The notes under the pieces: generated by a model | Databases searched by the model: none | What the model was told of the DNA's origin: nothing | Seen by the model: the letters and a program-made list of their open reading frames with translations, nothing else | Assembly (NCBI RefSeq): GCF_017876575.1 | Contig: NZ_JAGIOE010000001.1 | Span: 248,001-312,000, forward strand | DNA length: 64,000 nt | Source: Paeniglutamicibacter psychrophenolicus | Lineage (GTDB): Bacteria > Actinomycetota > Actinomycetes > Actinomycetales > Micrococcaceae | Direction of reading: 5' to 3' | Program-made: the position numbers and the translations under genes | Shown here: piece by piece, positions 48,948 to 64,000 of the stretch | Layout of the letters: every line of letters begins with the position of its first letter | Position numbering within the stretch: position 1 is the stretch's first letter

Positions 48948-49230
48948 CGCGCGGTGACCCTTTGGAATCCGTGCAGCATTATCCCCAATTTTGCCGAACA
49001 CTTTAATTACCCCAATTACCCCAAGGGGCGCGACAACCACGCAATAAGCACCGTTTACGGAACGGCCCCAGCCGATCCGTTAGATAAGTTCAAACCCCAA
49101 GTTCAAACTTCCCCCAGTATTTATTGGGTCCCCAGCACCCAATTTTGTGTTGCTTGTGCTGCCGACATTCTAATCACACAATGTGTTCCACGTCTACTAC
49201 AACCAATGGAATATCTATTTTCGGTCGAAT

Positions 49231-49659
49231 TCAGAGGAATGGATACTCGATCTTGGGGCAGGTGTCCATCACGACTTCCAGCCCGGCTGCCTTGGCACGT
49301 GCGGCTGCCGATTCGTCAATGACACCGAGTTGCAGCCAGAGTGCATCCGCTCCGACGGCGATCGCCTGGTCAACAATGTCGCCGACTTTTTGCGAGTTCA
49401 CAAAGCAGTCAACGACGGCGATGTGCCCCGGAATATCCGCCAACCGCTTGTATCCGGTGTTGCCCAGGACTTCCTCGCCGCTGAGGGATACAGGGATGAC
49501 TTCCATCCCGAGTTGCTCCTGCAGAAAGTACGAGACCCCCGGTGCCACGCGCCGCGGGTTGTTGGTCAGTCCGACCACTGCCCATCGCGCGGGGGTTTGC
49601 AGGAGCCGGCGAACTACCGCCGGGTCGTTGACGTGGCGTTGGCCAACTTCGTTGCTCAT
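49231..49659 (-). CDS. CoA-binding (YccU-type) Rossmann protein
   Basis: A 142-residue single-domain CoA-binding protein of the YccU type: WAVVGLTNNPRRVAPGVSYFL at the N-terminus, IPVSLSGEEVLG, and WLQLGVIDESAAARAKAAGL. Family members bind CoA but no reaction is established. The ATG opening MSNEVGQ is preferred to a much longer open frame upstream. It follows the organosulfur operon on the same strand after a hairpin, so it is probably a separate unit. Confidence 0.8.
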   Translation of the reverse strand: MSNEVGQRHVNDPAVVRRLLQTPARWAVVGLTNNPRRVAPGVSYFLQEQLGMEVIPVSLSGEEVLGNTGYKRLADIPGHIAVVDCFVNSQKVGDIVDQAIAVGADALWLQLGVIDESAAARAKAAGLEVVMDTCPKIEYPFL

Positions 49660-49786: not shown

Positions 49787-51205
49787 CTAGAGTGAGCGCT
49801 CCAGCGCCTGCTCGGTGTTAGCCGCCGAGTGCTCCGTGAAGGCGCCACGGAAACGCGCCGCCGGATGGGATTCCTCGAGGCGGGCACCGCGGCCGAAGAC
49901 CTTCTCACGCAGGGTTCCCGGGGCGTACTCGGTCTGCGCCAGTCCGCGCTTGTGCAGCTCGGGCAGGATGCCGTCGATGAAGTCGGTGTAGGAGCCGGGC
50001 AGGATCTGGTTCATGATGTTGAGCCCGTCCATGCCGGCGTCCTGCCAGCGTTCGATCTCGTCCACGATCTGTTCCGGGGTGCCGGAGATCTGCTGGGCCT
50101 TGGCCCGGTAGCGTGCCAGGTCGCCAATGGTGGGCTTGCCTCCCGGCACCGAGGCAATGGCCGCCTCGAGGACGCCGCGGGCCCCCTCGGTCTGTACATC
50201 CCCCAGCGGGGTGTCCAGGTCCAGGCCGCCCAGGTCGATCCCGATGCCGCCACCGATGTGGGCAACGATTGCGTCGAGGTCCAGGTACTCGTCGTACTCT
50301 GCTTCCTTGCGCTTGGCTTCCTCCTCGGTGCTGCCGACCACGAAGGACAGTCCCGCAAAGACCTTCACGTCTCCCTTGGCGCGGCCTGCAGCGGCCTCGA
50401 GCTCGCGGATCTTGCCCACCTGCTTGGCCACGTACTCCGGGTGCGGGGCAAAGAGGAAGGTCGCTTCCGCATGCTGGGCAGCGAACTGCTTGCCGCGCGC
50501 GGAGGAGCCCGCCTGAAACAGGAACGGGGTGCGCTGCGGGCTTGGCAGGGCGGTGTGCGGGCCCTCGATGGAGTAGCGCTTGCCCTGGTGGTGGATCTTG
50601 TTGACCTTGGCCGGGTCGGCAAAGAGCCCCGATTCCTTGTCGGCAAGAAGTGCGTCGTCTTCCCAGGAACCCTCCCACAACTTGTAGGTGGCCTCGACGT
50701 ATTCGTCGGCCCAGTCGTACCGGTCGTCGTGGGCGGCCAGGCCCGCGGCGCCGAAGTTGCGGTGCGAGTTCTCCAGCACGCTGGTCACGATGTTCCACGC
50801 AACGCGTCCGTTGGAGATGTGGTCAAGGGTGGAGAGCTGGCGCGCGAACTGGAACGGCGAGGCCTGCACCACCGAGCTGGTCATCGCCAGGCCGATGTCG
50901 CTGGTGGTCGCGGCGAGCGCCGAGAGCAGCACCAGCGGGTCGTGCGAGGGAACCTGCATGCCCTTGCGGACCATCGAGGCCCACCCGCCCTCGTGGTTGC
51001 CATACAGTCCCACGACGTCGGCAAAGAACATGTTGTCGAACTTCGCGTCCTCGAGCTGCTTGGCCAGGTCGACCCACAGCTTCAGCTCGTTGAAGCGGTG
51101 CTGCTGGGCCTCGGGATGGCGCCATTGGCCGCCGAGGATGTGGCTCGGGGTGTTCATCAGGAAGGCGCTCAGCAGCAGCCGTGGACGCGCATCAAAGGTA
51201 CCCAT
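49787..51205 (-). CDS. FMN-dependent monooxygenase, NtaA/SnaA/DszA (luciferase-like) family
   Basis: A 472-residue bacterial-luciferase-like monooxygenase of the subgroup that uses reduced FMN to attack sulfones, amines and related compounds. Conserved parts are the N-terminal LLLSAFLMNTPSHILGGQWRHP, NGRVAWNIVTSVLENSHRNFG and SPQRTPFLFQAGSS. It starts directly after the stop of the DszC/SfnB-like gene (TAAATG) and is the last gene of the riboswitch-controlled importer operon. It probably oxidises an imported organosulfur compound, releasing sulfite or sulfinate; the substrate is unknown. Confidence 0.87.
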   Translation of the reverse strand: MGTFDARPRLLLSAFLMNTPSHILGGQWRHPEAQQHRFNELKLWVDLAKQLEDAKFDNMFFADVVGLYGNHEGGWASMVRKGMQVPSHDPLVLLSALAATTSDIGLAMTSSVVQASPFQFARQLSTLDHISNGRVAWNIVTSVLENSHRNFGAAGLAAHDDRYDWADEYVEATYKLWEGSWEDDALLADKESGLFADPAKVNKIHHQGKRYSIEGPHTALPSPQRTPFLFQAGSSARGKQFAAQHAEATFLFAPHPEYVAKQVGKIRELEAAAGRAKGDVKVFAGLSFVVGSTEEEAKRKEAEYDEYLDLDAIVAHIGGGIGIDLGGLDLDTPLGDVQTEGARGVLEAAIASVPGGKPTIGDLARYRAKAQQISGTPEQIVDEIERWQDAGMDGLNIMNQILPGSYTDFIDGILPELHKRGLAQTEYAPGTLREKVFGRGARLEESHPAARFRGAFTEHSAANTEQALERSL

Positions 51206-52441
51206 TTACTTGCTCTCCGATTTCGAATCCTTGGCGTCCCCGATGGAGTGCAGCCCGGTGGGAATGGTGCCGTTGATGTAGTAGTCGCCCACCGAGCGGG
51301 CCTTGAAGGCCACGGGATTGTGGGTCGCGACGGTGCGGGCGTTGCGCCAGTGCCGGTCCAGGGACTTGCCGCGCGACACCGAGGAAGCACCGGTGACGTC
51401 AAAAAGTTCGCTGGTTGCATCCAGCACCAGTTTCGGGACGCTCACGTGTGCCTGCTGCACGGCAAGCTCCGCGCGGATAAAGGCAGCCGTCGGATCCAGA
51501 CCCAGCGAGGTGTCGACCGCGGCATCTAGGTCGCGGGCGGCGGCGAAGACGATCGCGTCGGCCGCGTAGACGGCCGCGGCGATGCGGCCGACCTTTTCCT
51601 GGATCAGCGGGTCGTTGCGGAACAGGTCCCCGGAACCGGTGTTGAAGGTCCGGGTGCGCTCGCGCACCAGCAGTGCCGCATCCGCCAGCGCAGCGCGGCC
51701 GATGCCGGCCAGCACGCTCAGCAGCGACAGCTGGAAGAAGGCGGGCTCGAGCGTGGAGGAAACCTTGCGCGCGATGATGTCCTCGAATTCGACCACGACG
51801 TCATCAAAGATCGCGGTGCCGGTTCCCGTCAGGGGCTGGCCGAAGCCATCCCAGTCGTCAATGATCCGGACCTTGGCGTCGTCGGCGCGCACGATGGCGT
51901 ACTGACGGCCCTCGACGCCTTCGGTGCTGGCCATGACCACGACCCAGTCGGCAAAGATCGACCCGGTCGTGTAGTACTTTTCCCCGTTGAGCAGCCACTG
52001 GCCGTTTTCCTCGCGGAGCTTGGTGTTGGTCGTGCCCAGGGCGTTGCCGCCCTTCTCGGTGGCCGCATTGCCGAAAATCTCGCCGGCAAGCACCCGCGGG
52101 AACCAACGGAGCCGGAATTCCTCGGGCTGCAGGGCAATGGTTTCGACAAAGGAGAAGTGCGAGCGCAACAGGTGCCCGACGTTGGAGTCGGCCGCGGAAA
52201 GTTCCACGATCAGCCGGAAGAGGTGCTCGTGGCTGACGGGTTCCCCACCGTAGGCTGCCGGGACCCGAAGCGTGGTGAAGCCCGCGTCCTTGAGCCACTT
52301 CACTGGTTCAAAGGGCAACACGTGGTCGTTTTCGCGCTCCACGGTGCCTTCGGCGATGCGCTCAAACACCGGGGCAAAGCGCGCGCTCAGCTCCGCGTAG
52401 CGGGCTTCGGCTGTTCGTTCCTTCACGTACGTTGCACTCAT
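51206..52441 (-). CDS. Acyl-CoA-dehydrogenase-fold monooxygenase, DszC/SfnB-like
   Basis: A 411-residue flavoprotein with the acyl-CoA dehydrogenase fold, in the subgroup of DszC (dibenzothiophene) and SfnB (dimethyl sulfone utilisation) that oxygenates sulfur compounds with reduced flavin. Typical segments are NGEKYYTTGSIFADWVVV and the C-terminal RHWRNARTVATHNP. The catalytic Glu of true dehydrogenases is not evident. It sits between the importer ATPase and the DszA-like gene in one operon. Substrate specificity cannot be read from the sequence. Confidence 0.85.
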   Translation of the reverse strand: MSATYVKERTAEARYAELSARFAPVFERIAEGTVERENDHVLPFEPVKWLKDAGFTTLRVPAAYGGEPVSHEHLFRLIVELSAADSNVGHLLRSHFSFVETIALQPEEFRLRWFPRVLAGEIFGNAATEKGGNALGTTNTKLREENGQWLLNGEKYYTTGSIFADWVVVMASTEGVEGRQYAIVRADDAKVRIIDDWDGFGQPLTGTGTAIFDDVVVEFEDIIARKVSSTLEPAFFQLSLLSVLAGIGRAALADAALLVRERTRTFNTGSGDLFRNDPLIQEKVGRIAAAVYAADAIVFAAARDLDAAVDTSLGLDPTAAFIRAELAVQQAHVSVPKLVLDATSELFDVTGASSVSRGKSLDRHWRNARTVATHNPVAFKARSVGDYYINGTIPTGLHSIGDAKDSKSESK

Positions 52442-52488: not shown

Positions 52489-54126
52489 CTAATTCGTTGC
52501 CATCTCGCGCAGCAGCGCCCCGGGGTTCGAATCCAGCAGGAGCCTGGTGTATTCGCTGGCGGGACTGTTCAGGACCTGTGCCGCCGCCCCGACCTCGACC
52601 AGCCGGCCTTGGCGCATGACTCCCACATCGTGGGAAATGCGTTCGACCACATGCAGGTCGTGGGAAATAAAGAGGTAGGACAGGCCCTGGTTGATCTGGA
52701 GATCTTCCAGGAGCGCCAGGATCTGCGCCTGGGTCAGGACGTCGAGTGCGGAAAGGGCCTCGTCCAGCACGAGCGTCTTGGCACCCAGTGCCAGCGCCCG
52801 GGCAATGGCCACGCGTTGGCGCTGCCCGCCGGAGAGTTCCTTGGCACCCAATGCGGCCATGCGGCTGGGCAGGTTGACCGCGTCCAGCAGCTCGGCCACC
52901 CGGATCCTGCGTTCGGCCTTGCTGCCGACCTTGTAGTTTTCCAGCGGTTCGCTGATGATCCGGGACACCGAGTAGCGCGGGTCCAGGGCCGAATCCGGGT
53001 TTTGGTACACCAGCTGCAGGCTGCGCCAGAGTTCGCGCTTGGCGGCCCCGCGCACGTGGGTGACGTCCTGTCCGTGGATTTTCACGATTCCGGCGGTGGG
53101 CTCCAACAGCCTCATGATCATCCGCGCGGTCGTGGATTTCCCGGAACCGGACTCGCCCACCAGGGAGAAGGTCGTGCCGGGGCGCACCGCGAACGAAACC
53201 TCGTCCACGGCCGCGCGTTCGGTTTTCCCGCTGCCGAAGATCTTGCCCAGGCCCGCCACCTCGATGGCCGGGACCTCGATGCCGCGTGCATCGCCGGTGG
53301 TCCGTGATCCGTCGCCCGAGGCGGTGGCCTCGGTGAGCAGCATTCGGGTGTAGGGGTCTTCGGGTGCCCGCAGGATCTCACGCACCGGGCGGTCCTCGCG
53401 GATCCGCCCGTGCTGCATGACAACGATGCGGTCGGCGATGTCCGTGGCCACGGCGAGGTCGTGGGTCACGAAGATGACAGCGGTTCCGAGCTCCCGCGCC
53501 AGCTTGGTGAAGACCTCCAGGATCGTCTGCTGGACCGTGACGTCCAGGGCGGAGGTGGGCTCGTCGGCAATCAGCAGCTCGGGCTCCAGCGCGAAGGCAA
53601 TGGCAATGAGCACCCGCTGCTTCAGACCGCCCGAAAGCTCGTGCGGGTACTGGCCGATGCGCTGTTCCGGGGTGTCGATCCCGACCAGTTCCAGCAGCCG
53701 GATGACTTCGGCGCGCAGCTGCGCCTTGGAGCGCTTGCGGCCCTGCGGGTGCAGGCGGAAGACCTCGGAGATCTGGGATCCCACGGTCTTCACCGGGTCC
53801 AGTGAAGCTCCCGGATCCTGCGGGACCATGCCGATACGCCGGCCGCGGATCGATTCCAGCTCCTTGGCCGCCATGTCCAGGAGGTTCCCGCCGGCCAGGT
53901 CGATGCTGCCGTCCAGGATCCTTGCGGATTCGGGAAGCAAGCCGATGATGGCCTTGGACAGGGTGGACTTGCCCGAACCCGATTCGCCGACCAGGGCAAC
54001 GATTTCCCCGGGCCTGAGGGCGAGGTCGATGTTCTCCGCGGCGACGACCGCTTCGTCGCCGTGGCCGTAGGTGATGCTCAGCCCGCGGATATCCAGCAAT
54101 GCTGGTGCCGAGTCGATGGTGCTCAT
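52489..54126 (-). CDS. Peptide/nickel-type ABC importer, fused double ATPase
   Basis: A 545-residue protein holding two complete ABC domains in one chain. Each has GESGSGKST, a signature (LSGGLKQR; LSGGQRQR) and Walker B (LLIADEPTSALD; TLVLDEALSALD). It is the DppD-DppF arrangement fused, common in such sulfur-compound importers. AGGAG upstream supports the ATG. It is 13 bases after the permease gene and powers the importer encoded upstream. Confidence 0.9.
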   Translation of the reverse strand: MSTIDSAPALLDIRGLSITYGHGDEAVVAAENIDLALRPGEIVALVGESGSGKSTLSKAIIGLLPESARILDGSIDLAGGNLLDMAAKELESIRGRRIGMVPQDPGASLDPVKTVGSQISEVFRLHPQGRKRSKAQLRAEVIRLLELVGIDTPEQRIGQYPHELSGGLKQRVLIAIAFALEPELLIADEPTSALDVTVQQTILEVFTKLARELGTAVIFVTHDLAVATDIADRIVVMQHGRIREDRPVREILRAPEDPYTRMLLTEATASGDGSRTTGDARGIEVPAIEVAGLGKIFGSGKTERAAVDEVSFAVRPGTTFSLVGESGSGKSTTARMIMRLLEPTAGIVKIHGQDVTHVRGAAKRELWRSLQLVYQNPDSALDPRYSVSRIISEPLENYKVGSKAERRIRVAELLDAVNLPSRMAALGAKELSGGQRQRVAIARALALGAKTLVLDEALSALDVLTQAQILALLEDLQINQGLSYLFISHDLHVVERISHDVGVMRQGRLVEVGAAAQVLNSPASEYTRLLLDSNPGALLREMATN

Positions 54127-54139
54127 GCTGTTCTCCTGG

Positions 54140-55048
54140 CTAGAAACGGAAGATCTTGTGGAGCTGGCGGCCGAGTCCCGCAAGCAGGATGACCACCGCG
54201 ACGATGACCACGCCCGGAAGGGTCGTGAGCCACCAGGCCGAGGCGAGGTATTGGCGTCCCTCGGCGATGAGCAGGCCCCATTCGGGGGTCGGCGGCGGGG
54301 ACCCGAAGCCCAGGAAGCCGAGCCCGGAGATCGCCAGGATGGCAACCCCGAGGTCCACGGCCAGCAGCGCCAGGACCGGGCCGCAGGAGTTGGGCAGGAT
54401 GTGCTTGAAGACCACCGACCAGTAGGTCCCGCCGTTCATGAACGCGGCTTCGACGTAGTCAAGGCTGCGCACCCGCAGCACCTCGGAGCGGACGACGCGG
54501 GCGAAGGATGCGATGGAGGCGATGCCCACGCCGATGCCCAGGGAGATCGGTCCCGGCGCAAAGGCGGTGACGATGATCAGCGACACCAGGAAGCCCGGGA
54601 CGGCAAGCAGCACGTCGATCAGGCGCATGGTCACGGCGTCGGCGGCACGTCCCGCGGTTGCGGCCAACAGGCCCAGGCCGGTTCCCACCACGAGGCCGAT
54701 GGACACGGCCAGTCCCGCGGTCAACAGGGTCTGGCTGGTTCCATGGACCACCCGGGCAAACACGTCCCTTCCCAGGTGGTCGGTGCCGAACCAGTGTTCG
54801 GCACCGGGAGCCTGGAACTTCTGCGCGGGAACACCGCTGATGGGGTCGAATCCGCTGAAAAGCGTCGGGAACAGCGCCCAGCCCAGGACCATGGCCAGCG
54901 GGGCGCAGGTGAGCCAGAAGGCGGGGGAACGAAGGGCGCCGGCCTTCTTCCTCGGCGCGGCAACCTCGTCCACCTTGAGGGGTGCAACGACCGGGACGTT
55001 GTCCTGGGCCTCGACCCGGGTCAACGGTTCATCTAGTTTGATGCTCAT
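54140..55048 (-). CDS. ABC importer permease, DppC type
   Basis: A 302-residue permease with about six membrane segments and the DppC-type N-terminal cytoplasmic part. The binding-protein-dependent transport motif is in SLDYVEAAFMNGGTYWSVVFKHILPN. The segment HWFGTDHLGRDVFARVVHG is characteristic of DppC/OppC proteins. It pairs with the DppB-type permease 18 bases upstream. The importer probably brings in an organosulfur compound, judged from the operon, not from the permease itself. Confidence 0.9.
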   Translation of the reverse strand: MSIKLDEPLTRVEAQDNVPVVAPLKVDEVAAPRKKAGALRSPAFWLTCAPLAMVLGWALFPTLFSGFDPISGVPAQKFQAPGAEHWFGTDHLGRDVFARVVHGTSQTLLTAGLAVSIGLVVGTGLGLLAATAGRAADAVTMRLIDVLLAVPGFLVSLIIVTAFAPGPISLGIGVGIASIASFARVVRSEVLRVRSLDYVEAAFMNGGTYWSVVFKHILPNSCGPVLALLAVDLGVAILAISGLGFLGFGSPPPTPEWGLLIAEGRQYLASAWWLTTLPGVVIVAVVILLAGLGRQLHKIFRF

Positions 55049-55066: not shown

Positions 55067-56026
55067 CTAGGCCACAAGTGCGCGCGGTGCCCCGTGCGTT
55101 CCACTCTTGAGGATCCGCGGATCCAGCAGCGGGTAAAGCAGGTCGACCACCAGGTTCACCACGACGAATGCCGTGGCCGTGAGCAGTACGAGCCCCTGGA
55201 CCAGGGCGACGTCCTGCGCCGTGACCGACTGCAGCACGACCTGGCCCAGGCCCGAGCGGGCGAACACCGTCTCGGTGATGACGGATCCGGCAAGCAGCGT
55301 TCCCACGGTGATCCCGCTGATGGTCATGGCCGGTGCCGCGGCGTTCTTCAGGGTGTGGCGGAAGAAGATCCACGACGGCGAAGCACCCTTGGCGCGCAGC
55401 ACGTCGATGAACGGCTGGGCGTGCACATTGTCCACGCTCTTGAGGAGCACCTGGGCGATCGGGGCGGAGACGTGGATGGCCAGCACGAGCACCGGAACGG
55501 CGATCGAGGCAAAGGACCCGTCCGGGAACAGCGACATGATTCCCAGCTTGATGGACAGCACCTGCAATAGCACCAGTCCCAGCCAGAACACCGGGACCGC
55601 CGCGAAGAGCGGCGGCAGGTTGAGCACCAGCCGCTTCAGCCACGCCTTGCGTGCCAACGTGGCCGAGGCGACCAGCACCACCGCGAAGACGACCGCGGTG
55701 ACGAAGGCGCTGGAGGCCAGCACCAGCGTCGATCCGACGACGGCGCCGATGCGTTCGGCAACCGGCTGGCCCGAGGCCAGCGAGTAGCCGAAGTCCCCGG
55801 TGAAGAGGCCGGCCAGTTGGCTGAAGTACTGCACGATCAAGGGCTGGTCGTAGCCGTACTGCGCCTTCATGGCGGCAATGGTTGCCGGGTCGGCCGCAGC
55901 ATCGGCTGAAAGGAAGATCGTTACCGGGTCATTTGGCAGCAGCTGCACGGCCAGGAAGACCAAGGTGTAGGCAAGCCAAATGACGAGCAAGGCTTGTCCG
56001 ATGCGTCGCGCGATGTATGCGGCCAT
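55067..56026 (-). CDS. ABC importer permease, DppB type
   Basis: A 319-residue permease with a first membrane segment at residues about 10-30 and five more from 100 onward. It has DppB-type motifs: YGYDQPLIVQYFSQLAGLFTGDFGYS near 55-80 and the ATPase-contacting loop DVLRAKGASPSWIFFRHTLKN. It lies six bases after the binding-protein gene. Confidence 0.9.
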   Translation of the reverse strand: MAAYIARRIGQALLVIWLAYTLVFLAVQLLPNDPVTIFLSADAAADPATIAAMKAQYGYDQPLIVQYFSQLAGLFTGDFGYSLASGQPVAERIGAVVGSTLVLASSAFVTAVVFAVVLVASATLARKAWLKRLVLNLPPLFAAVPVFWLGLVLLQVLSIKLGIMSLFPDGSFASIAVPVLVLAIHVSAPIAQVLLKSVDNVHAQPFIDVLRAKGASPSWIFFRHTLKNAAAPAMTISGITVGTLLAGSVITETVFARSGLGQVVLQSVTAQDVALVQGLVLLTATAFVVVNLVVDLLYPLLDPRILKSGTHGAPRALVA

Positions 56027-56032
56027 GGTTGG

Positions 56033-57691
56033 CTACTTTCCGGTCTTCCAGGCGCCCTGGAAGATCGGGGCGGTGCCGGAGGTGAATTCAACGTGGGCGT
56101 CGGAGTTGCCGCCGTAGACCTGGACTTCGTCCCACAAGACGAGGGACAGCGCCTTTTCGGTGACCAGCTGGCGCTGTTCCTCGGCGACCAGTTCCTTGTG
56201 CTCCGCTTCGCTGGTGGCGGCGCGTTCCTTGGCGAACAGCGCGTTGAGCTCGGTGTCGGCGTTCAGCGTCTGGGTGTTGTTGGCCGGGCCGAAGACCGGG
56301 CCCAGTCCGCCGTATGCAAACTGGCGGGTCCCGAAGAACTCGATGTTCGGATCGATCATGGCCGTGGCCAGGAAGGTGTTGTCGGCGGCGCGGTTGATGA
56401 GCTTGACGCCGATTTCGCGCCACTGCTGTTCGATCAATTCGAAGGCGGGCTTGATGACGACGGAGTTGTTCGAGCTGGTGATGGTGAGTTCCAGCTTCTT
56501 GCCGTCCTTCTCGCGGACGCCGTCGGCTCCGACGACCCAGCCTGCCTCGTCGAGCAGGGCCTTGGACTTTTCCGGGTTGTAGGCCAGGTCCGCGGACAGG
56601 TCGATGAATCCGGGTGCCGCGTGGTTCAGGACGGAGTCGGCGATGACGTAGCTGTCGGAAAGCACGGTGTCCTTGATGGACTGGCGGTCGATGCCGACCT
56701 GGAGTGCCTGGCGCACCTTGGCATCGGCGAGCTTGCCGTTGCCGATGCGCACCGCTGCCATGTTCGTGGTCAGGTCGACGCCCTGGGCCGGAAGGACCTG
56801 GTCGCCGCTGCTCTTGAGTGCCTGCTCGTCCACGGGCTGGAGTCCGCGCACCAGGTCGACCTGCCCGGTTTGCACGGCGCCGGCGCGGTGGGCGACCTCG
56901 GGCAGGTACTTCACCACGAGCTTGTCCAGGTATGCGGCGCCCTGGTTGGGGGCCGTTTCCGGTGCCCACTTGTAGTCGGCGCGCTTGGCGAAGGTGACTT
57001 CCTCGTCGGTCTTTTCGGATTCAAAGACGAACGGGCCGGATCCGATGATCTTCGCGATCGCCGACTGTCCGGCATTGTCCAGCTTCAGTGTTGCCGGGGA
57101 AACCAGGCCCGCAGTGACTGACGAAGTGGCGCGCAGGAAGTTGGCGTCCGGTGCCTTGAGCGTGACCTTGACCTGGTTCTTTCCCACGACCTTCGAGGAC
57201 TTGTAGGAGGCGAAGTCGACGTTCGGTGCGACCTGCGCGTCCTTGATCCCCAGCCCAAGCGCGTCAAGGTTTTCCTTCACGGCCTTGGCATCGAGCGGAG
57301 TTCCGTCGGAGAAGGTCACGCCGTCACGGATGGTGAAGGTGAATTCGGTCTGGTCCTTGCTGGCGCTGAACTCGGAGGCGATCCAGCTTACGAGCTTTCC
57401 CGATTCCGTGTCGAAATAGGTCAGGCGGTCCAGCACGCTGTTGAGGACGTTGGACTTCTCGTAGAAGCGTGCGGCCTGGGTCTGCCAGTTGTTGATCGGG
57501 GCGACCTCCGCGTAGACGAAGGTTCCTCCCTGCACCGGCTCGGTGCTGACCGGGCCGGCCGCGTTGCCCGTTGCTGGGGCTCCGGACCCGCACGCGCTCA
57601 GTGCAAGGGTGGCGACGGAAAGTACCGTAAGAATCTTGACGCTGAGGCTGGCGCGAATACGTCGCTTGGCCGGTGGGTTGGTGTTGCCCAT
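56033..57691 (-). CDS. Periplasmic-type solute-binding lipoprotein, family 5
   Basis: A 552-residue lipoprotein: signal peptide with lipobox LSAC (C34), then a family 5 extracellular solute-binding domain (DppA/OppA/NikA fold) with IRDGVTFSDGTPLDAKAV and RQALQVGIDRQSI. It captures the substrate for the two permeases and fused ATPase encoded downstream. It is the first gene of a six-gene unit that ends with two sulfur-type monooxygenases. A SAM-I-like leader precedes it by about 108 bases. The ligand is probably a sulfur compound such as a sulfone or sulfonate. Confidence 0.9.
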   Translation of the reverse strand: MGNTNPPAKRRIRASLSVKILTVLSVATLALSACGSGAPATGNAAGPVSTEPVQGGTFVYAEVAPINNWQTQAARFYEKSNVLNSVLDRLTYFDTESGKLVSWIASEFSASKDQTEFTFTIRDGVTFSDGTPLDAKAVKENLDALGLGIKDAQVAPNVDFASYKSSKVVGKNQVKVTLKAPDANFLRATSSVTAGLVSPATLKLDNAGQSAIAKIIGSGPFVFESEKTDEEVTFAKRADYKWAPETAPNQGAAYLDKLVVKYLPEVAHRAGAVQTGQVDLVRGLQPVDEQALKSSGDQVLPAQGVDLTTNMAAVRIGNGKLADAKVRQALQVGIDRQSIKDTVLSDSYVIADSVLNHAAPGFIDLSADLAYNPEKSKALLDEAGWVVGADGVREKDGKKLELTITSSNNSVVIKPAFELIEQQWREIGVKLINRAADNTFLATAMIDPNIEFFGTRQFAYGGLGPVFGPANNTQTLNADTELNALFAKERAATSEAEHKELVAEEQRQLVTEKALSLVLWDEVQVYGGNSDAHVEFTSGTAPIFQGAWKTGK

Positions 57692-57796
57692 GAGTATTTC
57701 CCTCTCGGTTCACCCGAGGAACGCCGCGACATGGCTGGTCAATCGGATACCGCGTGGGGCATGACGGTATTCGGTGGACCGCGCAGAGTTTGGCTA

Positions 57797-57890
57797 TCTC
57801 CATCGGTCCTGGCGGTAGCACCGGCTCCCCGTGACGGGAGTGGTTGCTGCGACGTCAACGAGCCAGGTCTCTCAGTCGCTCTGGATGGTG
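57797..57890 (-). ncRNA. S-box-like (SAM-I clan) riboswitch A, upstream of the importer operon
   Basis: Read on the minus strand, P1 pairs CCATC (57888-57884) with GATGG (57804-57800), P2 pairs GCGAC with GTCGC, the inner helix GAG/CTC encloses the conserved CCTGG loop, then GCAGCAACC, a CTCCC/GGGAG P3, and GGTGCTACCGCC. These match the S-box core. P2 differs from the other two copies by a compensatory pair (GCGAC/GTCGC against GCGGC/GCCGC). Family choice (SAM-I, SAM-IV or the I/IV variant) is uncertain. Confidence 0.8.
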
Positions 57891-58262
57891 TGTGCCCGTA
57901 AGTGGCTGGTTGCCGACTTCGAACACTTCAAGTGTGTTGCAGGATCTTCGATATGACCAAGGAAATGGGGCCCGCGGTGAAACAAACCGACGCAATGGGT
58001 CGATTCCTGGCTTGAATCGAGTCGCCGGACGTCACAAGACCGATTGTGACGCACCGATTTCCGGAAGCTTGCGTCATCATCGAGTCATGTTGACAATGAA
58101 GCGCTGGTATCGGCGGCATTTCAGCGCCCCGAAAAGCACTCCGACCAGTTCGCCGCTTGATGGTTACGGACCCTGCCAATCGCAAGATCCCATGCTCGGC
58201 CATCGCTTGCGGGCAGCGGTCCACCGTATGCCGGTGCGCCCCAAACGTGGTTGGATCGGTTC
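57891..58262. other. Intergenic region between riboswitch A and the DUF1345 gene
   Basis: No gene recognised. It must contain the divergent promoters of the importer operon (minus strand) and of the DUF1345 gene (plus strand). I could not assign -10/-35 boxes with confidence. Confidence 0.4.
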
Positions 58263-58913
58263 ATGAAAAGCACGTTGTCGCAGCGCGCCAGGCACCGCAG
58301 GCTGCGCGTTCTGGGCATGCTCGCCGGCGGAGTCGCCGCCACTGCATTGACCGGCCTCCTGGGAGCCTGGGTTTACGCTCCGGCCGTCGGCTGGACCGTG
58401 GCAGCGCTGATTTACAACGCCTGGGTATGGATCACCATTGCCCCCATGGACCATGCCCGCACCGCGGCCCACGCACAGGAGGAGGACCCGGGATTCCAGA
58501 CCACGGACCTGCTGATCCTCTTCGCGGCCATCGGCTCGCTGGCCGCGGTCGTGATGGTGATGGCCGGCAGCAGGGACCTGGCCGGAGGCGCAAGGTTGCC
58601 GTTGGCACTGCTGGCACTGACCTGCACCGCGATGTCGTGGCTGATGGTCCATACGCTCTACACGCTGCGCTACGCCATGATCTATTACAGCGGCACACCG
58701 GGCGGCATCGAATTCAACCAGGACGAGGCCCCGCAATACACGGACATCGCCTACATGGCGTTCAGCGTGGGCATGACCTACCAGGTCTCGGACACCAGCA
58801 TCACCACGCGTGAAATGCGCTCGGCGGTCTTGCGCCACAGCTTGCTGGCGTTCCTCTTCGGCACCGGAATCCTCGCCACCACCATCAACCTGGTGGTCAG
58901 CCTTGCCGCGTAA
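58263..58913 (+). CDS. DUF1345 membrane protein
   Basis: A 216-residue membrane protein with about five segments (near residues 20-40, 45-63, 83-103, 113-132, 190-212) and the DUF1345 signature DIAYMAFSVGMTYQVSDTSI. Function unknown. The ATG opening MKSTLSQ is preferred; a TTG four codons upstream is possible. The ribosome binding site is weak. It lies between two sulfur operons on the opposite strand and has no evident link to them. Confidence 0.82.
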   Translation: MKSTLSQRARHRRLRVLGMLAGGVAATALTGLLGAWVYAPAVGWTVAALIYNAWVWITIAPMDHARTAAHAQEEDPGFQTTDLLILFAAIGSLAAVVMVMAGSRDLAGGARLPLALLALTCTAMSWLMVHTLYTLRYAMIYYSGTPGGIEFNQDEAPQYTDIAYMAFSVGMTYQVSDTSITTREMRSAVLRHSLLAFLFGTGILATTINLVVSLAA

Positions 58914-58915
58914 AT

Positions 58916-58958
58916 GGCTGGGGAGGCGGTGCATCCATGGTGCGCCACCTCCCCAACC
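58916..58958. terminator. Hairpin between convergent DUF1345 and DmoA-like genes
   Basis: Seventeen-base arms (58916-58932 and 58942-58958) pair with a few G-U or mismatched positions, best on the minus strand. The position between two converging gene ends suggests a bidirectional terminator. Confidence 0.65.
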
Positions 58959-58984
58959 GGCAGGGAACTTTGCCCCGCTATTAC

Positions 58985-60388
58985 TTACTTGACCTCGGCG
59001 TTCGAGAACCGGTAGTTGGCCGCGCGGTGCGAGTCCTGGACCCGGTCGCCCTTGCCGAAGAGCTTGTTGCGCAGCGTGCCCTCAACGTAATCGGTCGGGT
59101 AGGCACCGCGGGCCTGCAGCTCGGGAACGATGAACTCGACGATGTCCTCGAAGGTGCCCGGGGTGATGGCGTAGGCCAGGTTGAACCCGTCCACGTCGGT
59201 GTCCTGCACCCACTCGATCAGCTTGTCGGCGACCTCGGTCGGCGAGCCCACGGTGATCGGGCCGAAGCCGCCCACGCCGACCCACTCGGCCAACTGGCGG
59301 ATCGTCCACGGGTTCCCGGCGTCCCCGCTGGCCTTCTGGAAGGTCGCCACGGAGGACTGGATGGCGTTGGACTTCACGTTGTCGCCAATGACGTCGTCCG
59401 GACCGTAGGTGGACAGGTCGATGCCCATCCAGCCCGAGATCAGGGCCAGGGCGCCGTCGATGTCGGCGTAGGACTTGTAGTCCTCGAACTTTGCCTGGGC
59501 CGCTGCGGAGTCCACGTCCGTGATGATGGTCTGCATGGCGTAGATGCGCACATCGTAGCGGTCGCGGCCGGCGGCCTCGACCTCGTCGCGGATCTTGGTG
59601 ACGGTGGCCTTGAGCAGTTCCTTGGTCGGGGAGGTCACGAAGACGGCTTCGGCGTTCTCCGAGGCGAACTTCAGCCCGCGCGGCGAGGTGCCCGCCTGGA
59701 AGACGACAGGGGTGCGCTGCGGGCTGGGCTCGGTGATCGCGATGCCCGGGACCTTGAAGTACTTGCCCTCGTGCTTGATCTCGTGGACCTTGGCCGGGTC
59801 GGTGAAGATGCCGCGCTCGGCGTCGCGCACCACCGCGTCCTCTTCCCAGGAGCCCTCGAGCAGTTTGTACACGACCTCCATGTACTCGTCGGCGTGGTTG
59901 TAGCGCTCGTCGTGCTCGAGCTGGTCTTCCTGGCCCATGTTCCGGGCGGCGGAGGGCAGGTAGCCGGTGACCACGTTCCAGCCGATGCGACCCTTGGTCA
60001 GGTGGTCAAGGGTGGCCAGGCGGCGGGCAAACGGGTACGGGTGCTCATAGGCGGTGCCGGCGGTGACGCCGAAGCCGAGGTTCTCGGTCACCGAGGCCAT
60101 GGCCGAGACGAGCATGAACGGGTCGTTGACCGGGACCTGGGTGCCGGCACGCAGCGGAACCTCGTTGGAGCCGCCGAAGACGTCATAGGTGCCCAACACG
60201 TCGGCGATGAAGATGCCGTCGAACTTGCCCTTTTCCAGGGTCTTGGCCAGGTCGGTCCAGTAGGACAGGTCCTTGTAGCGGGCTGACTGGTCCTTGGGGT
60301 GCTTCCACAAACCCGGGGACTGGTGTCCCACGCAGTTCATGTCGAAGGCGTTGAATCGGATCTGGCGTGTGGCCGGCGTCGTGCTCAT
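58985..60388 (-). CDS. FMN-dependent monooxygenase, dimethyl-sulfide monooxygenase (DmoA)-like
   Basis: A 467-residue luciferase-like monooxygenase. It resembles DmoA of Hyphomicrobium closely from memory: RFNAFDMNCVGHQSPGLWKHP at the N-terminus, HLTKGRIGWNVVTGYLPSAARN, SPQRTPVVFQAGTSPRG, and DVDGFNLAYAITPGTFEDI. DmoA oxidises dimethyl sulfide with reduced FMN. The substrate here is inferred; dibenzothiophene sulfone or other sulfones are alternatives. It follows the DszC-like gene by 81 bases in the second riboswitch-controlled unit. Confidence 0.83.
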   Translation of the reverse strand: MSTTPATRQIRFNAFDMNCVGHQSPGLWKHPKDQSARYKDLSYWTDLAKTLEKGKFDGIFIADVLGTYDVFGGSNEVPLRAGTQVPVNDPFMLVSAMASVTENLGFGVTAGTAYEHPYPFARRLATLDHLTKGRIGWNVVTGYLPSAARNMGQEDQLEHDERYNHADEYMEVVYKLLEGSWEEDAVVRDAERGIFTDPAKVHEIKHEGKYFKVPGIAITEPSPQRTPVVFQAGTSPRGLKFASENAEAVFVTSPTKELLKATVTKIRDEVEAAGRDRYDVRIYAMQTIITDVDSAAAQAKFEDYKSYADIDGALALISGWMGIDLSTYGPDDVIGDNVKSNAIQSSVATFQKASGDAGNPWTIRQLAEWVGVGGFGPITVGSPTEVADKLIEWVQDTDVDGFNLAYAITPGTFEDIVEFIVPELQARGAYPTDYVEGTLRNKLFGKGDRVQDSHRAANYRFSNAEVK

Positions 60389-60469
60389 GGTTGTCCTTTG
60401 CGGGAGTGTCGGGTGGTTGTCGGTCCGGTACGGGACGGGCCGGCGGTGTGGGTTCTGGGGGCGGGATGC

Positions 60470-61807
60470 CTAGGGCAGTGCGGTGGCCGGGGTCGGGCCG
60501 ACGTCGCCGATGGCGTTCAGCTGCTGGGGCGCCGCGCCGTTGACCTCGTAGTCGCCGATGATCCGCGACTTGTAGATCGCCGGGTTGTGCGTGGCCACGG
60601 TGCGGGCGTTGCGCCAGTGCCGGTCGAGGTTGCAGCTCGTGGCGGTTGCCGAGGCGCCCAACCCGTCAAAGAGCTTGGTCGCAGCGGAGAGCGCCAGCGG
60701 TTGCACGATGGCCTGGGCCCGGTCCGCCGAGAGCTCGCAGACCGCGAAGCGCTCGGCCGCGCTCAGCGACGTGTCGGCCAGGGCGACCTCGATCTCCGCA
60801 ACCGCCGCCAGGACGATGGAATCAACCGCGAACGCGGTGCCGGAAATCTCCCCGACCAGCTGCAGGACCTGTGGCTCCTCGCGCACCGGCACCCCGGTTC
60901 CGGTGCTGAACGACCGGGTGCGGGCCTGGACGGCGGAGCGCACGTCGTTGAGCGCCGCGCGGGTGATCCCGGCCTGTACCGCCAGGAGCACCAGCTGGAA
61001 GATCGCGGATTCCGGATCGTTGATCTGCTGCTCCTCGGGAAGGACAGTGTCGACCGGGACGTTCTCGAACGTGGTCGATCCGGTCCCGGTGAGCTGCTGG
61101 CCGAAGCCGTCCCAATCATCAAAGATCTTCACGCCGGAGTGCTGGGTGGAGACCACGGCGATCTGCCGTCCGGCGCGGGTGGGGTGAGCCGCGGCGACGG
61201 CGACCCAGTCGGCGTAGATGGTGCCGGTGCAATAGTATTTTTCGCCGTTGAGGATCCAGCGCTCCCCATTCTTGGCGATGGTCGTATTCAGCGTGCCCAA
61301 CCGGTTTCCGCCACGTTCGGTGTAGGCATTGCCGACGATCTGTCCGGCAACGATGCGTTCGACCCAGCGGTGCCGCAGGGCGACGTCTTCGAGCTGCAGC
61401 ACGGATTCCACGAAGCCGATGTGCGAACGCCAGAGGTGTGCGACCTGCGAATCGGCCTCGCCCAGTTCGATGAGCAGGCGGAACAAATCCAGCAGGCTGG
61501 CCCCGTAGCCGCCCTCGGCCGCCGGGATGCGCAGGGCCCCGAAGCGCTCGCGGTTGAGCCAGCCGACCGGCTCGAAGGGAAGTGTCCTGTTCGCGTCGCG
61601 CTCGCTGGCCCCGGCAGCGATCTTGGCGAAGACCGGGCGGAAGATTGCGGCCAGCTCGTCGTAGTGCCCGTCCTTGGGGACTCCGGGGGTGAGCTTGAGC
61701 AGGTGCCTGGCAGGGGTGTTGCCGGTGAACGCGTCTAGATTGACGGCCCCGAAAATGTTCGGATCCGCTTCGACATTGTGTGCATCGTTGAAAGACTCGA
61801 CAGCCAT
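60470..61807 (-). CDS. Acyl-CoA-dehydrogenase-fold monooxygenase, DszC/SfnB-like (second copy)
   Basis: A 445-residue paralogue of the DszC/SfnB-like protein at 51206-52441, sharing NGEKYYCTGTIYADWVAV and RHWRNARTVATHNP but with a 35-residue N-terminal extension. The ATG at 61807 is fixed by GGAGAG, whose first two bases are part of helix P1 of the upstream riboswitch. It is the first gene of a two-gene unit with the DmoA-like enzyme. It probably oxygenates a sulfide or sulfone; the flavin would come from a separate reductase not seen here. Confidence 0.85.
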   Translation of the reverse strand: MAVESFNDAHNVEADPNIFGAVNLDAFTGNTPARHLLKLTPGVPKDGHYDELAAIFRPVFAKIAAGASERDANRTLPFEPVGWLNRERFGALRIPAAEGGYGASLLDLFRLLIELGEADSQVAHLWRSHIGFVESVLQLEDVALRHRWVERIVAGQIVGNAYTERGGNRLGTLNTTIAKNGERWILNGEKYYCTGTIYADWVAVAAAHPTRAGRQIAVVSTQHSGVKIFDDWDGFGQQLTGTGSTTFENVPVDTVLPEEQQINDPESAIFQLVLLAVQAGITRAALNDVRSAVQARTRSFSTGTGVPVREEPQVLQLVGEISGTAFAVDSIVLAAVAEIEVALADTSLSAAERFAVCELSADRAQAIVQPLALSAATKLFDGLGASATATSCNLDRHWRNARTVATHNPAIYKSRIIGDYEVNGAAPQQLNAIGDVGPTPATALP

Positions 61808-61812
61808 GATTT

Positions 61813-61918
61813 CTCTCCATCGGTTCTGGCGTGAGCACCTACCGCCCAATCAAGGGGAGGGGTTGCTGCGGCGTCATGGAGCCAGATCTCTCGGCCGCTC
61901 TGGATGGTTGTTGGTCAT
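61813..61918 (-). ncRNA. S-box-like (SAM-I clan) riboswitch B, overlapping the ribosome binding site
   Basis: On the minus strand: P1 CCATC (61917-61913) with GATGG (61821-61817), P2 GCGGC/GCCGC, inner GAG/CTC around ATCTGG, GCAGCAACC, a short P3, then AGGTGCTCACGCCAG. The Shine-Dalgarno GGAGAG (61818-61813) begins with the last two bases of P1, seven bases before the ATG. Ligand binding that closes P1 would hide the ribosome binding site, an off switch at translation. Confidence 0.83.
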
Positions 61919-62333
61919 ATTTCTACACGCCGCGGCGCAGGGGTGACAACTCGGATCGTCACAATTGGGCCCTGCGCCACCGGCTGGATGGCGATCCACC
62001 AACTCAGTCCGGCCCGCGGGAATCATCGGATGTGCGGCGTTCTTCAGGCCATTCATTCGAAGCATCTGCCAATATCCCTCGGACCTGCCGAAAAACCCCG
62101 TCGGCCGTACAATCATTGGCAAATAGGATGGTGGCATGAGACTTCCAGTGTCCTTCCCGGGTGCCAGCTGCACCGGGAACACTGATTCGCAGCGTTTCCG
62201 CCATTCGATAATTTTCGATTTATACGAAGATTATTCGACCTTGAAACCAAGAAAAGCCTGACATCGAACGTTCCGTCACATTACGGTCGGTTTGCTCCCG
62301 TGACACGCCATCGAGTTTGATGAATGAAACTAC
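61919..62333. other. Divergent promoter region between riboswitches B and C
   Basis: No gene recognised. It holds promoters for the DszC/DmoA-like unit and for the synthetase gene. An AT-rich imperfect inverted repeat lies at 62205-62238; open frames here are short and lack ribosome binding sites. Confidence 0.45.
62205..62238. promoter_or_regulatory. AT-rich imperfect inverted repeat in the divergent promoter region
   Basis: TTCGATAATTTTCGA and CGAAGATTATTCGA are inverted copies with one inserted base, separated by TTTATA. The composition contrasts sharply with the surrounding GC-rich DNA. It could be an operator for a sulfur regulator or part of a promoter. Confidence 0.4.
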
Positions 62334-62420
62334 CCATCCCGAGCGGCCGAGAGATCTGGCTCCCTGACGCCGCAGCAACCACCTCCGTCAGGTGAAGTGC
62401 TAACGCCAGAACCGATGGAG
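62334..62420 (+). ncRNA. S-box-like (SAM-I clan) riboswitch C, in front of the synthetase gene
   Basis: P1 CCATC (62334-62338) pairs with GATGG (62414-62418); P2 GCGGC (62343-62347) with GCCGC (62368-62372); inner GAG/CTC encloses ATCTGG; then GCAGCAACC, P3 ACCT/AGGT and AGTGCTAACGCCAG. GGAG (62417-62420) is the ribosome binding site of the next gene, six bases before its ATG, and its GG belongs to P1. It is nearly identical to riboswitch B, on the opposite strand. Confidence 0.83.
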
Positions 62421-62426
62421 AACAAA

Positions 62427-64000
62427 ATGCCTGAAACCCTTTTGCCCGTGCTCGCTGCCGAGGAAACCTTGTGGAGCGAAGACGAACGCCTCGCGTTCTG
62501 GGATGCCGCGGCGCGGCGCCTGAGCTGGTCCGAGGACTGGCACACCATCCACTCGAGCACCGGTGTCGATGCCGAGGCCCGGCGCGGGCCCGAGCTTCGC
62601 TGGTTTGAGGGCGGCAAGCTCAACGCCGCCTACAACTGCGTGGACCGCCACGTGGAAGCCGGGCGCGGCGACAAGGTCGCCCTGCACTTCGAGGGCGAGC
62701 CCGGCGACAGGACGACCGTCACCTACCAGGACCTGCAGGACCGGGTGTCCCGGGCCGCCAACGCGCTGCTCGCCCTGGGCGTGGGCAAGGGCGACCGCGT
62801 GGTCATCTACCTGCCCGTGCTCGTGGAAACCGTGGTCATCACCCTGGCCTGCGCGCGCATCGGCGCGGTGCACTCGCTGGTCTTCGGCGGCTTTTCCGCA
62901 GAGGCGCTGAGGTTCCGCGTCGAAGACACCGGCGCGAAGCTGCTGGTCACCACCGATGGGCAGTTCCGCCGCGGCGAGGCCGTGCCGGTCAAGGACAACG
63001 CCGATGCCGCGGTTTCCGGGGAGAACAGCATCGAACACGTGCTGGTGCTCCGGCGCACCGGGAACGAGATCGCCTGGACCGAAGGCCGGGACGTGTGGTG
63101 GCACGAAACCGTCGACACGGCGAGCAAGGAGCACTCCCCCGAGGCATTCGACGCCGAGACCCCGCTGTTCATCATGTACACCTCCGGCACCACCGGCCAG
63201 CCCAAGGGCCTGGTCCACACCACCGGGGGCTACCTGACGCAGGCCTCCTGGAGCCACGAGTTCCTCTTCTCCCATCCGGACCCCGCGCAGCGGGAAAACG
63301 ATGTCCACTGGTGCACTGCGGACCTGGCCTGGGTCACCGCGCACACCTACGAGATCTACGGGCCGCTGTCCAACGGCGTCACGCAGGTCATCTACGAGGG
63401 CGTGCCCAACGCCCCTCACCCCGGGCGCCACTTCGAGATCATCGCGCGCTACGGCGTGACCAGCTACTACACCGCGCCCACCCTGGTGCGCTCGCTGATG
63501 GGCTGGTTCCCCGAGGGGGTCCCTGCCGACTACGACCTGTCCTCGATCCGATTGGCCGGAACCGTGGGCGAGGCCGTGAACCCGGAGGCATGGCGCTGGC
63601 TGCGCAGCCAGGTCGGCCGCGACACCGAAGCCGGCATTCCGATGGTCGACACCTGGTGGCAGTCCGAAACCGGCTCCACGATCCTTTCCCCGCGGCAGGG
63701 GGACACCGAGTTCAAGCCGGGCTGCGGCACCCGGGCGCTGCCCGGGGTAACCGTGGACATCGTCGACGAACAAGGAGCCGGGGTGGAGCCGAACGTGCAG
63801 GGCAACATCGTGCTGACCAAGACCGGCCCGGCCATGGCCCGCACCGTGTGGGGAAACCCCGAGCGCTACTACACCTCCTACTGGGAAAAGTATGCCGAGC
63901 AGGGCTGGTTCCTGGCCGGGGACGGCGCACGCTTCGATGCGGACGGGGACATCTGGATCCTGGGCCGGACCGACGACGTCATCAACATCTCCGGGCACCG
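62427..64000 (+). CDS. Acetyl-CoA synthetase-type AMP-forming ligase (cut by window edge)
   Basis: The first 524 residues of an AMP-forming acyl-CoA synthetase of the Acs type; the C-terminal domain lies outside. Visible motifs are the Acs linker and N-terminal domain, LVFGGFSAEALRFRVED, the P-loop YTSGTTGQPKG (near 249-259), DTWWQSETGS, and GRTDDVINISGH at the hinge. It converts acetate, or possibly a related short acid, plus CoA and ATP to acyl-CoA and AMP. The unusual point is its SAM-I-like leader shared with two organosulfur operons. A side role in sulfur-compound breakdown, such as activating a C2-C4 acid left after desulfonation, is an inference. Confidence 0.85.
   Translation, partial: MPETLLPVLAAEETLWSEDERLAFWDAAARRLSWSEDWHTIHSSTGVDAEARRGPELRWFEGGKLNAAYNCVDRHVEAGRGDKVALHFEGEPGDRTTVTYQDLQDRVSRAANALLALGVGKGDRVVIYLPVLVETVVITLACARIGAVHSLVFGGFSAEALRFRVEDTGAKLLVTTDGQFRRGEAVPVKDNADAAVSGENSIEHVLVLRRTGNEIAWTEGRDVWWHETVDTASKEHSPEAFDAETPLFIMYTSGTTGQPKGLVHTTGGYLTQASWSHEFLFSHPDPAQRENDVHWCTADLAWVTAHTYEIYGPLSNGVTQVIYEGVPNAPHPGRHFEIIARYGVTSYYTAPTLVRSLMGWFPEGVPADYDLSSIRLAGTVGEAVNPEAWRWLRSQVGRDTEAGIPMVDTWWQSETGSTILSPRQGDTEFKPGCGTRALPGVTVDIVDEQGAGVEPNVQGNIVLTKTGPAMARTVWGNPERYYTSYWEKYAEQGWFLAGDGARFDADGDIWILGRTDDVINISGH

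Follow-up and report, generated by a model that had tools for sequence, protein, structure and literature searches.

P4-less SAM-I riboswitches as probable OFF switches of methionine and organosulfur genes, next to SAM-IV, in Paeniglutamicibacter psychrophenolicus

Three leaders of the SAM-I class

In a 64,000-nt stretch of the 4.9 Mb genome of Paeniglutamicibacter psychrophenolicus (NZ_JAGIOE010000001.1, positions 248,001-312,000, or C1:248001-312000), hereafter the window, three similar leaders precede sulfur-scavenging and acetate-activating genes. A prediction made from the sequence had assigned all three to SAM-I-like riboswitches that answer to S-adenosylmethionine (SAM), and a cmscan search of the window against Rfam bears out the assignment: RF00162 (SAM-I) was the sole RNA family over its gathering score in the whole window, with three matches of 54.7-57.1 bits against a cut-off of 44.4 bits. 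Copy A (57797-57891, minus strand; 57.1 bits, E 1.5e-10) stands before an ATP-binding cassette (ABC) importer/monooxygenase operon, copy B (61814-61910, minus strand; 54.7 bits) before an SfnB-like/NtaA-DmoA pair, and copy C (62331-62421, plus strand; 55.9 bits) before an acsA paralogue. The two related SAM families match none of the copies in our genome-wide covariance-model searches, which score only part of the first-look candidates: RF01725 (SAM-I-IV) gave no match at E 10 (150 of 186 candidates scored), and none of the eight RF00634 (SAM-IV) matches at E 10, six of them over the cut-off (150 of 2168 candidates scored), falls on A, B or C.

The leaders share with RF00162, the S box, the stems P1, P2 with a kink-turn region and P3, the L2-J3/4 pseudoknot and the GCAACC/GGTGC core, together with sulfur genes downstream. 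As originally predicted, the P2 arms of A are GCGAC/GTCGC, those of B and C are GCGGC/GCCGC, and all three copies have the P1 CCATC/GATGG. The copies had been called near-identical, which is too strong a word for a similarity that is real but amounts to 81-90% identity (75/93, 74/89 and 79/88 aligned columns), and the GTGCTA ascribed to every core is found in A and C, B having GTGCTC. SAM-I is described as typically four-stemmed (PMC10853860), and the copies differ in having no P4 between J3/4 and the 3′ arm of P1: the P4 positions of the RF00162 model (17-18) are reduced to 1-2 nt, leaving 2-4 nt between the pseudoknot and the arm, yet the Rfam cut-off is passed. SAM-IV, of the same clan and present in the same genome, also lacks P4; P5 and a second pseudoknot are described as features of that class (PMC6890682). 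SAM-I-IV belongs to the SAM-I/SAM-IV superfamily as well (PMC2864571), but its described form has no P2 internal loop, which copies A-C possess.

The fold is further supported by relatives in the family, the Micrococcaceae. A regular expression gave 157 matches which, with duplicates counted once, are 147 distinct family sites, six of them in the P. psychrophenolicus genome; they come from the best-scoring listed matches and their neighbours and are not a random sample. Across 46 diverse family sequences, 99.8% of 1058 cells are paired (P1, P2/P2b, P3 and the L2-J3/4 pseudoknot), compared with only 26-54% in slid-partner controls. Double changes occur in seven of the 23 pairs (two each in P2 and P3, one each in P1, P2b and the pseudoknot), a number reached in none of 500 shuffles, whose mean is 1.4. 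The pseudoknot (CTGG/CCAG) is 100% paired with double changes at one of its four pairs, and reads CTTGG/CCAAG in L135 and L142. Covariance model and covariation together support the placement of the leaders in the SAM-I class.

The short form is shared by nearly all family sites measured. Between the pseudoknot and the P1 3′ arm, 146 of the 147 sites have 2-4 nt and the last has a stretch that is short by eye, with a search pattern that tolerated gaps of up to 30 nt and that matched all of the fetched RF00162 loci to which it was applied. We rejected P4 loss as a trait unique to the family, as seven of ten further phylum loci, eight of the ten having been fetched for short matches, show no P4 by eye. 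A P4-like hairpin was seen by eye in 25 of 25 parsed top-scoring phylum loci (five of the 30 were unparsed).

The missing P4 could also mean that these are SAM-I relatives, decayed or re-specialised, with a ligand other than SAM, and SAM-I variants with a different ligand exist (PMC10853860). The spermidine variant, as given in the text of that paper rather than its figure, is altered at SAM-contacting positions in J1/2 and P3 and lies near polyamine genes. In contrast, copies A, B and C keep an RF00162-like GCAA/GTGC P3 core whose letters agree with the consensus, and the genes behind them are sulfur and methionine genes. The same core letters are identical in all 46 family sequences, an invariance that is partly selection, since the search pattern required some of the conserved letters. 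We therefore consider a change of ligand very improbable, and treat the three RNAs as presumptive SAM aptamers.

Probable routes from P1 to the start codon

How would such aptamers act on their genes? We think it likely that the three leaders are P4-less SAM-I riboswitches that work as OFF switches. Plentiful SAM would bind the core of P1, P2, P3 and pseudoknot and lock P1. Copies B and C carry the Shine-Dalgarno (SD) sequence GGAG so close to the aptamer that its GG supplies the final two bases of the P1 3′ arm, and formation of P1 would directly block ribosome loading. The arm of copy B (61817-61821, minus strand) overlaps the SD at 61815-61818, with the ATG at 61805-61807, and that of copy C (62414-62418, plus strand) overlaps the SD at 62417-62420, with the ATG at 62427-62429; these start codons lie 9 and 8 nt past P1, respectively. 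In copy A, whose start is ~108 nt away, the P1 3′ region would instead pair with a downstream CGGTCC, as in a conventional anti-P1 expression platform. A fall in SAM would turn on, in concert, the import of organosulfur compounds, the monooxygenases that cleave C-S bonds, the activation of acetate and the synthesis of methionine. Direct SD occlusion is not claimed here as a discovery, since direct translation attenuation has been described for SAM-I (Barrick and Breaker 2007, PMC2258182); the available portion of that paper does not speak of a lost P4 or of organosulfur genes.

At many of the family sites a start codon lies where this model needs it. An ATG or GTG that opens an open reading frame (ORF) of at least 100 aa sits 6-14 nt past P1 in 66 of 143 sites, whereas control offsets give 11-31 of 143 downstream (11-13 of 142 at the two furthest) and 1-3 of 145-147 upstream; for ATG alone the count is 55 against 0-16. 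Among the 132 sites with a matched gene, homology supports an immediate in-frame start in 70, of which 56 have an SD that starts two bases inside P1. Both the overlap of P1 with the SD and the surplus of near start codons are solid; the SD would be released when SAM is low.

For copy A, the candidate anti-P1 hairpin (57776-57809, minus strand) pairs GGACCG (57804-57809) with CGGTCC (57776-57781) in competition with the P1 3′ arm. Its duplex energy is -16.8 kcal/mol compared with -11.7 kcal/mol for shuffles (p 0.02), and it appears in the centroid fold and is absent from the minimum free energy fold. Over the family, complementarity of this type reached p<=0.05 in 18 of the 76 leaders outside the immediate-start set (nine at p<=0.01) and in none of the 70 immediate-start sites.

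Several observations weigh against this reading of the platforms. The 76 leaders of the anti-P1 comparison include near-identical orthologues, which are not independent, as well as immediate starts without homology support, two of which (L033, L037) are among the 18. P1 itself is nearly invariant, with one of its five pairs varying, in two sequences. GATGGAG is present in 47 of 53 sites whose first match is at least 80 nt away, compared with 53 of 70 immediate-start sites; since the motif is as common far from starts as near them, GGAG phasing alone is no evidence, and we rejected it as proof of SD occlusion and take into account just the surplus of nearby starts. Folded as nested structures in the absence of ligand, B and C have their SDs paired elsewhere, even without P1 (unpaired probability 0.00-0.03). 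Over the 70 immediate-start sites the mean openness of the SD is 0.28 with P1 possible and 0.30 with the P1 5′ strand blocked, and exceeds 0.5 in five and seven sites, respectively. The folding energies do not surpass those of shuffled sequences (z -0.2 to -0.5). Finally, no sigma-70-like promoter was seen (0 versus 0.7 expected) and no terminator-like site lies between copy A and its gene (two overall versus 3.9 expected), both scans being uninformative.

Two of these points, the retention of GATGGAG at distant genes and folding that gives no sign of SD release, are what would be expected if B and C were SAM-I aptamers whose main effect is by way of mRNA stability, Rho-dependent termination or attenuation of transcription, with the overlap of P1 and SD secondary. 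Such a mode does not account for the excess of start codons at SD distance from P1, and the absence of an anti-P1 partner at every immediate-start site leaves no other platform visible there. We consider it unlikely, and retain P1-dependent blocking of the SD as the probable mode for B and C.

The genes behind SAM-I and SAM-IV

Operon A is a run of six co-directional genes on the minus strand. It opens with an ABC substrate-binding protein (56033-57691; TIGR04028, 367.7 bits against a cut-off of 468.5), followed by two permeases, Opp2B/NikB-like (55067-56026; NF045470, 238 bits, cut-off 350) and Opp2C/NikC-like (54140-55048; NF045474, 229 bits, cut-off 300), all three below cut-off, and by a fused ATPase of the Dpp/Opp/Nik type (52489-54126). 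The last two genes encode an SfnB-like flavin monooxygenase with an acyl-CoA dehydrogenase fold (51206-52441; TIGR04022, 302.7 bits) and a flavin mononucleotide (FMN)-dependent monooxygenase of the NtaA/DmoA family (49787-51205; TIGR03860, 496.9 bits, cut-off 279.7). Unit B, also on the minus strand, repeats this pair with an SfnB-like protein (60470-61807; TIGR04022, 268 bits) and an NtaA/DmoA-family enzyme (58985-60388; TIGR03860, 548.3 bits). A DszC/DmoA-like pair had been proposed; the NtaA/DmoA-family model passes its cut-off for both enzymes, and the DszC label is loose, with 129 and 111 bits against 850. The best model for the two proteins is SfnB, itself below its equivalog cut-off of 430.9 bits in both cases, so that we call them SfnB-like only. 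Behind copy C, on the plus strand, lies the acsA paralogue (62427-64000, extending beyond the window end), an acetate-CoA ligase by TIGR02188 (774 bits, cut-off 724.95), which ranks second among four ACS-like genes found in the genome.

The genome holds six SAM-I sites (RF00162), the three of the window included, and a model built from the family recovers the same six, with the next match at E 1.9 (150 of 7836 candidates scored). The other three precede a metY-type O-acetylhomoserine sulfhydrylase gene, metF-metE, and a second ABC importer unit that continues with NtaA/DmoA-family and acyl-CoA-dehydrogenase-like genes. Since SAM-I stands before metY, metF-metE and the second importer operon as well, the regulon, as read from gene order, is one of methionine plus organosulfur genes. 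The original prediction spoke of a single organosulfur regulon, with all sulfur genes at 49.8-64 kb apparently switched by SAM in place of a protein. A leader of its own, likely SAM-OFF, does stand before each of the three transcription units; the single organosulfur regulon is not supported in that wording, as SAM-I also precedes methionine genes and the acetate-CoA ligase paralogue, and part of the sulfur network lies behind SAM-IV.

A protein regulator at the promoter might still govern the operons in the main, with the riboswitches merely trimming expression. For Rhodococcus, proteins that may regulate sulfur genes have been discussed (PMC8557817), but no regulator is among the genes recognised at 49.2-64 kb, no search having been aimed at such regulators genome-wide, and every sulfur transcription unit in that interval has its own SAM-I leader. 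We find this unlikely, and regard control by the SAM-I leaders, in place of a protein, as a proposal.

The place of an acetate-CoA ligase among sulfur genes has a possible metabolic reason. The MetY reaction frees acetate from O-acetylhomoserine, and the AcsA paralogue behind copy C would perhaps recycle it; we suggest acetate recycling as the reason for its presence in the regulon. Within the stretch fetched downstream of each family site (up to 4 kb), AcsA turns up at 23 of the 147, and flavin reductase, AcsA and MetY stand in one run at two loci.

The SAM-IV sites of the genome stand before metY-metX, before a flavin reductase-like gene whose best model stays below its cut-off, before an OsmC-type gene, and before three small ORFs that we chose ourselves and that have no Pfam match. 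SfnB- and NtaA-type monooxygenases depend on reduced flavin from a partner, and the reductase behind SAM-IV therefore plausibly belongs to the same programme. Each of 15 genus genomes has one SAM-IV locus with this flavin reductase and another with metY. Flavin reductase-like genes, 43-48% identical, lie behind SAM-IV in P. psychrophenolicus and behind SAM-I in relatives. OsmC-type genes follow SAM-I in two genus genomes (L033:1595-2176 and L028:1595-2182, plus strand) and SAM-IV in the genome of the window (L083:5153-5746, minus strand); as one gene that changed riboswitch class, OsmC makes a weak case, since the compared proteins are 32% identical over 107 aa. 

Separately, three of the RF00634 matches (L084:720-831, L085:548-670 and L086:976-1105; C1:4670620, 4605448 and 4727876) share a variant core, ACCAACCCC...GGGTGGTTCGGATGA, in place of GGCAACCC...GGGTGC, and precede small ORFs of 90-116 aa with no Pfam match; by their sequence, these sites may be a SAM-IV subtype, conceivably one with an altered ligand.

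Three further features of the window and genome stand beside these units. A DUF1345 membrane protein gene (58275-58913, plus strand) lies between units A and B on the opposite strand, with no RNA-family match and no evident sulfur link. Genes of the CoA_binding_2 type (PF13380) recur next to SAM-I units, after operon A (49231-49659, minus strand) and after the metY of another SAM-I site, site D (L007:11194-12315, plus strand), in a role that is not obvious. An ORF of 3553 aa (38379-49040, minus strand) with many similar repeats and an anchor-like C-terminus looks by eye like a giant repeat surface protein.

Distribution and meaning of the regulon

The closest named records are from Paeniglutamicibacter and Arthrobacter (98% protein identity). 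SAM-I is present in 15 of 15 genus genomes, 122 of 149 family genomes (113 over the cut-off) and 199 of 396 phylum genomes, and SAM-IV in 148 of 149 family genomes; both classes occur in 121 of the 149, provided that the two surveys drew identical genomes, as the genome handles suggest.

A protein match to the P. psychrophenolicus regulon starts within 450 nt downstream in 132 of the 147 family sites, or 126 of 141 outside its own genome. The best matches are ABC ATPase (34), substrate-binding protein A (18), NtaA2 (18), AcsA (16), SfnB2 (16), MetY (10), SfnB1 (9), flavin reductase (5), MetF (4), SBP_F (1) and NtaA1 (1). At 31-39% identity the 34 ATPases can be called no more than an ABC ATPase; six that were sampled are MetN-like (four) or SsuB/nitrate-like (two), all below cut-off. 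Fifteen sites are unmatched, some since the fetched stretch ends, and four of their first genes that were sampled are MetE-like (two), MetQ-like (one) and SfnG (one, over the cut-off). SAM-I RNA lies upstream of sfnB relatives in 14 of 14 Micrococcaceae loci, and at E<=0.01 a model built from near relatives found it upstream of none of 11 Pseudomonas loci and not at the one Dokdonia locus. The same search gave one chance-level match of 13.7 bits, in L199.

The divergent arrangement of copies B and C (61814-62421) recurs in 12 of 15 genus genomes as two SAM-I sites 418-424 bp apart, although one of the flanking genes varies. A fixed place for AcsA as the divergent gene was rejected: it is the first gene in four genomes (G000, G005, G010 and G014), the others identified being an ABC ATPase in three (G001, G006 and G008) and an OsmC-type gene in one (G009), for eight of the 12 in all. 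Weaker matches to the SAM-I model (20.8-70 bits) occur beyond the divergent gene (L177:1042-1126, L178:1041-1126, L179:535-622, L180:522-609 and L182:501-587, all minus strand), and look like a further copy that is diverging or decaying.

Two SAM riboswitch classes in one genome have a precedent in Candidatus Pelagibacter ubique, for which SAM-V and SAM-II are described together, with occlusion of the ribosome-binding site by SAM-V and metY, metX, bhmT, mmuM and osmC downstream (PMC5069961). The differences are the aptamer classes, the phylum, and organosulfur importers that, in the account available from that paper, are not increased under sulfur limitation. A survey of RNA regulons is described as covering only Corynebacteriaceae and Mycobacteriaceae among Actinobacteria (PMC3766115), and in the open-licence literature, where absence is weak evidence, none of the titles listed concerns this regulon or SAM-I control of organosulfur oxygenases in this family. 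The sensor class is thus ordinary, and the gene set that it would control alongside SAM-IV seems little described.

As a tentative extension, which we hold as possible and no stronger, the methionine/organosulfur network of Micrococcaceae may run on two sister aptamer classes in each cell, with a P4-less, core-only SAM-I before monooxygenase, importer and acsA units, SAM-IV before metY-metX and the flavin reductase, and a changeable class before a given type of gene. The P4-less SAM-I would then represent the smallest core that it has in common with SAM-IV, and a different SAM threshold for each class might stage the responses to sulfur shortage.

In summary, these leaders are SAM-I riboswitches that probably switch off a regulon of methionine and organosulfur genes, with SAM-IV at work alongside. 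The analysis documents SAM-I without P4 at 146 of 147 family sites measured and its coexistence with SAM-IV in 121 of 149 family genomes, if the same genomes were drawn, and the leaders would offer SAM-responsive elements for desulfurisation-type enzymes. The regulon is testable: in this family, RNA would tie both the scavenging of organic sulfur and the synthesis of methionine to a single metabolite, SAM.

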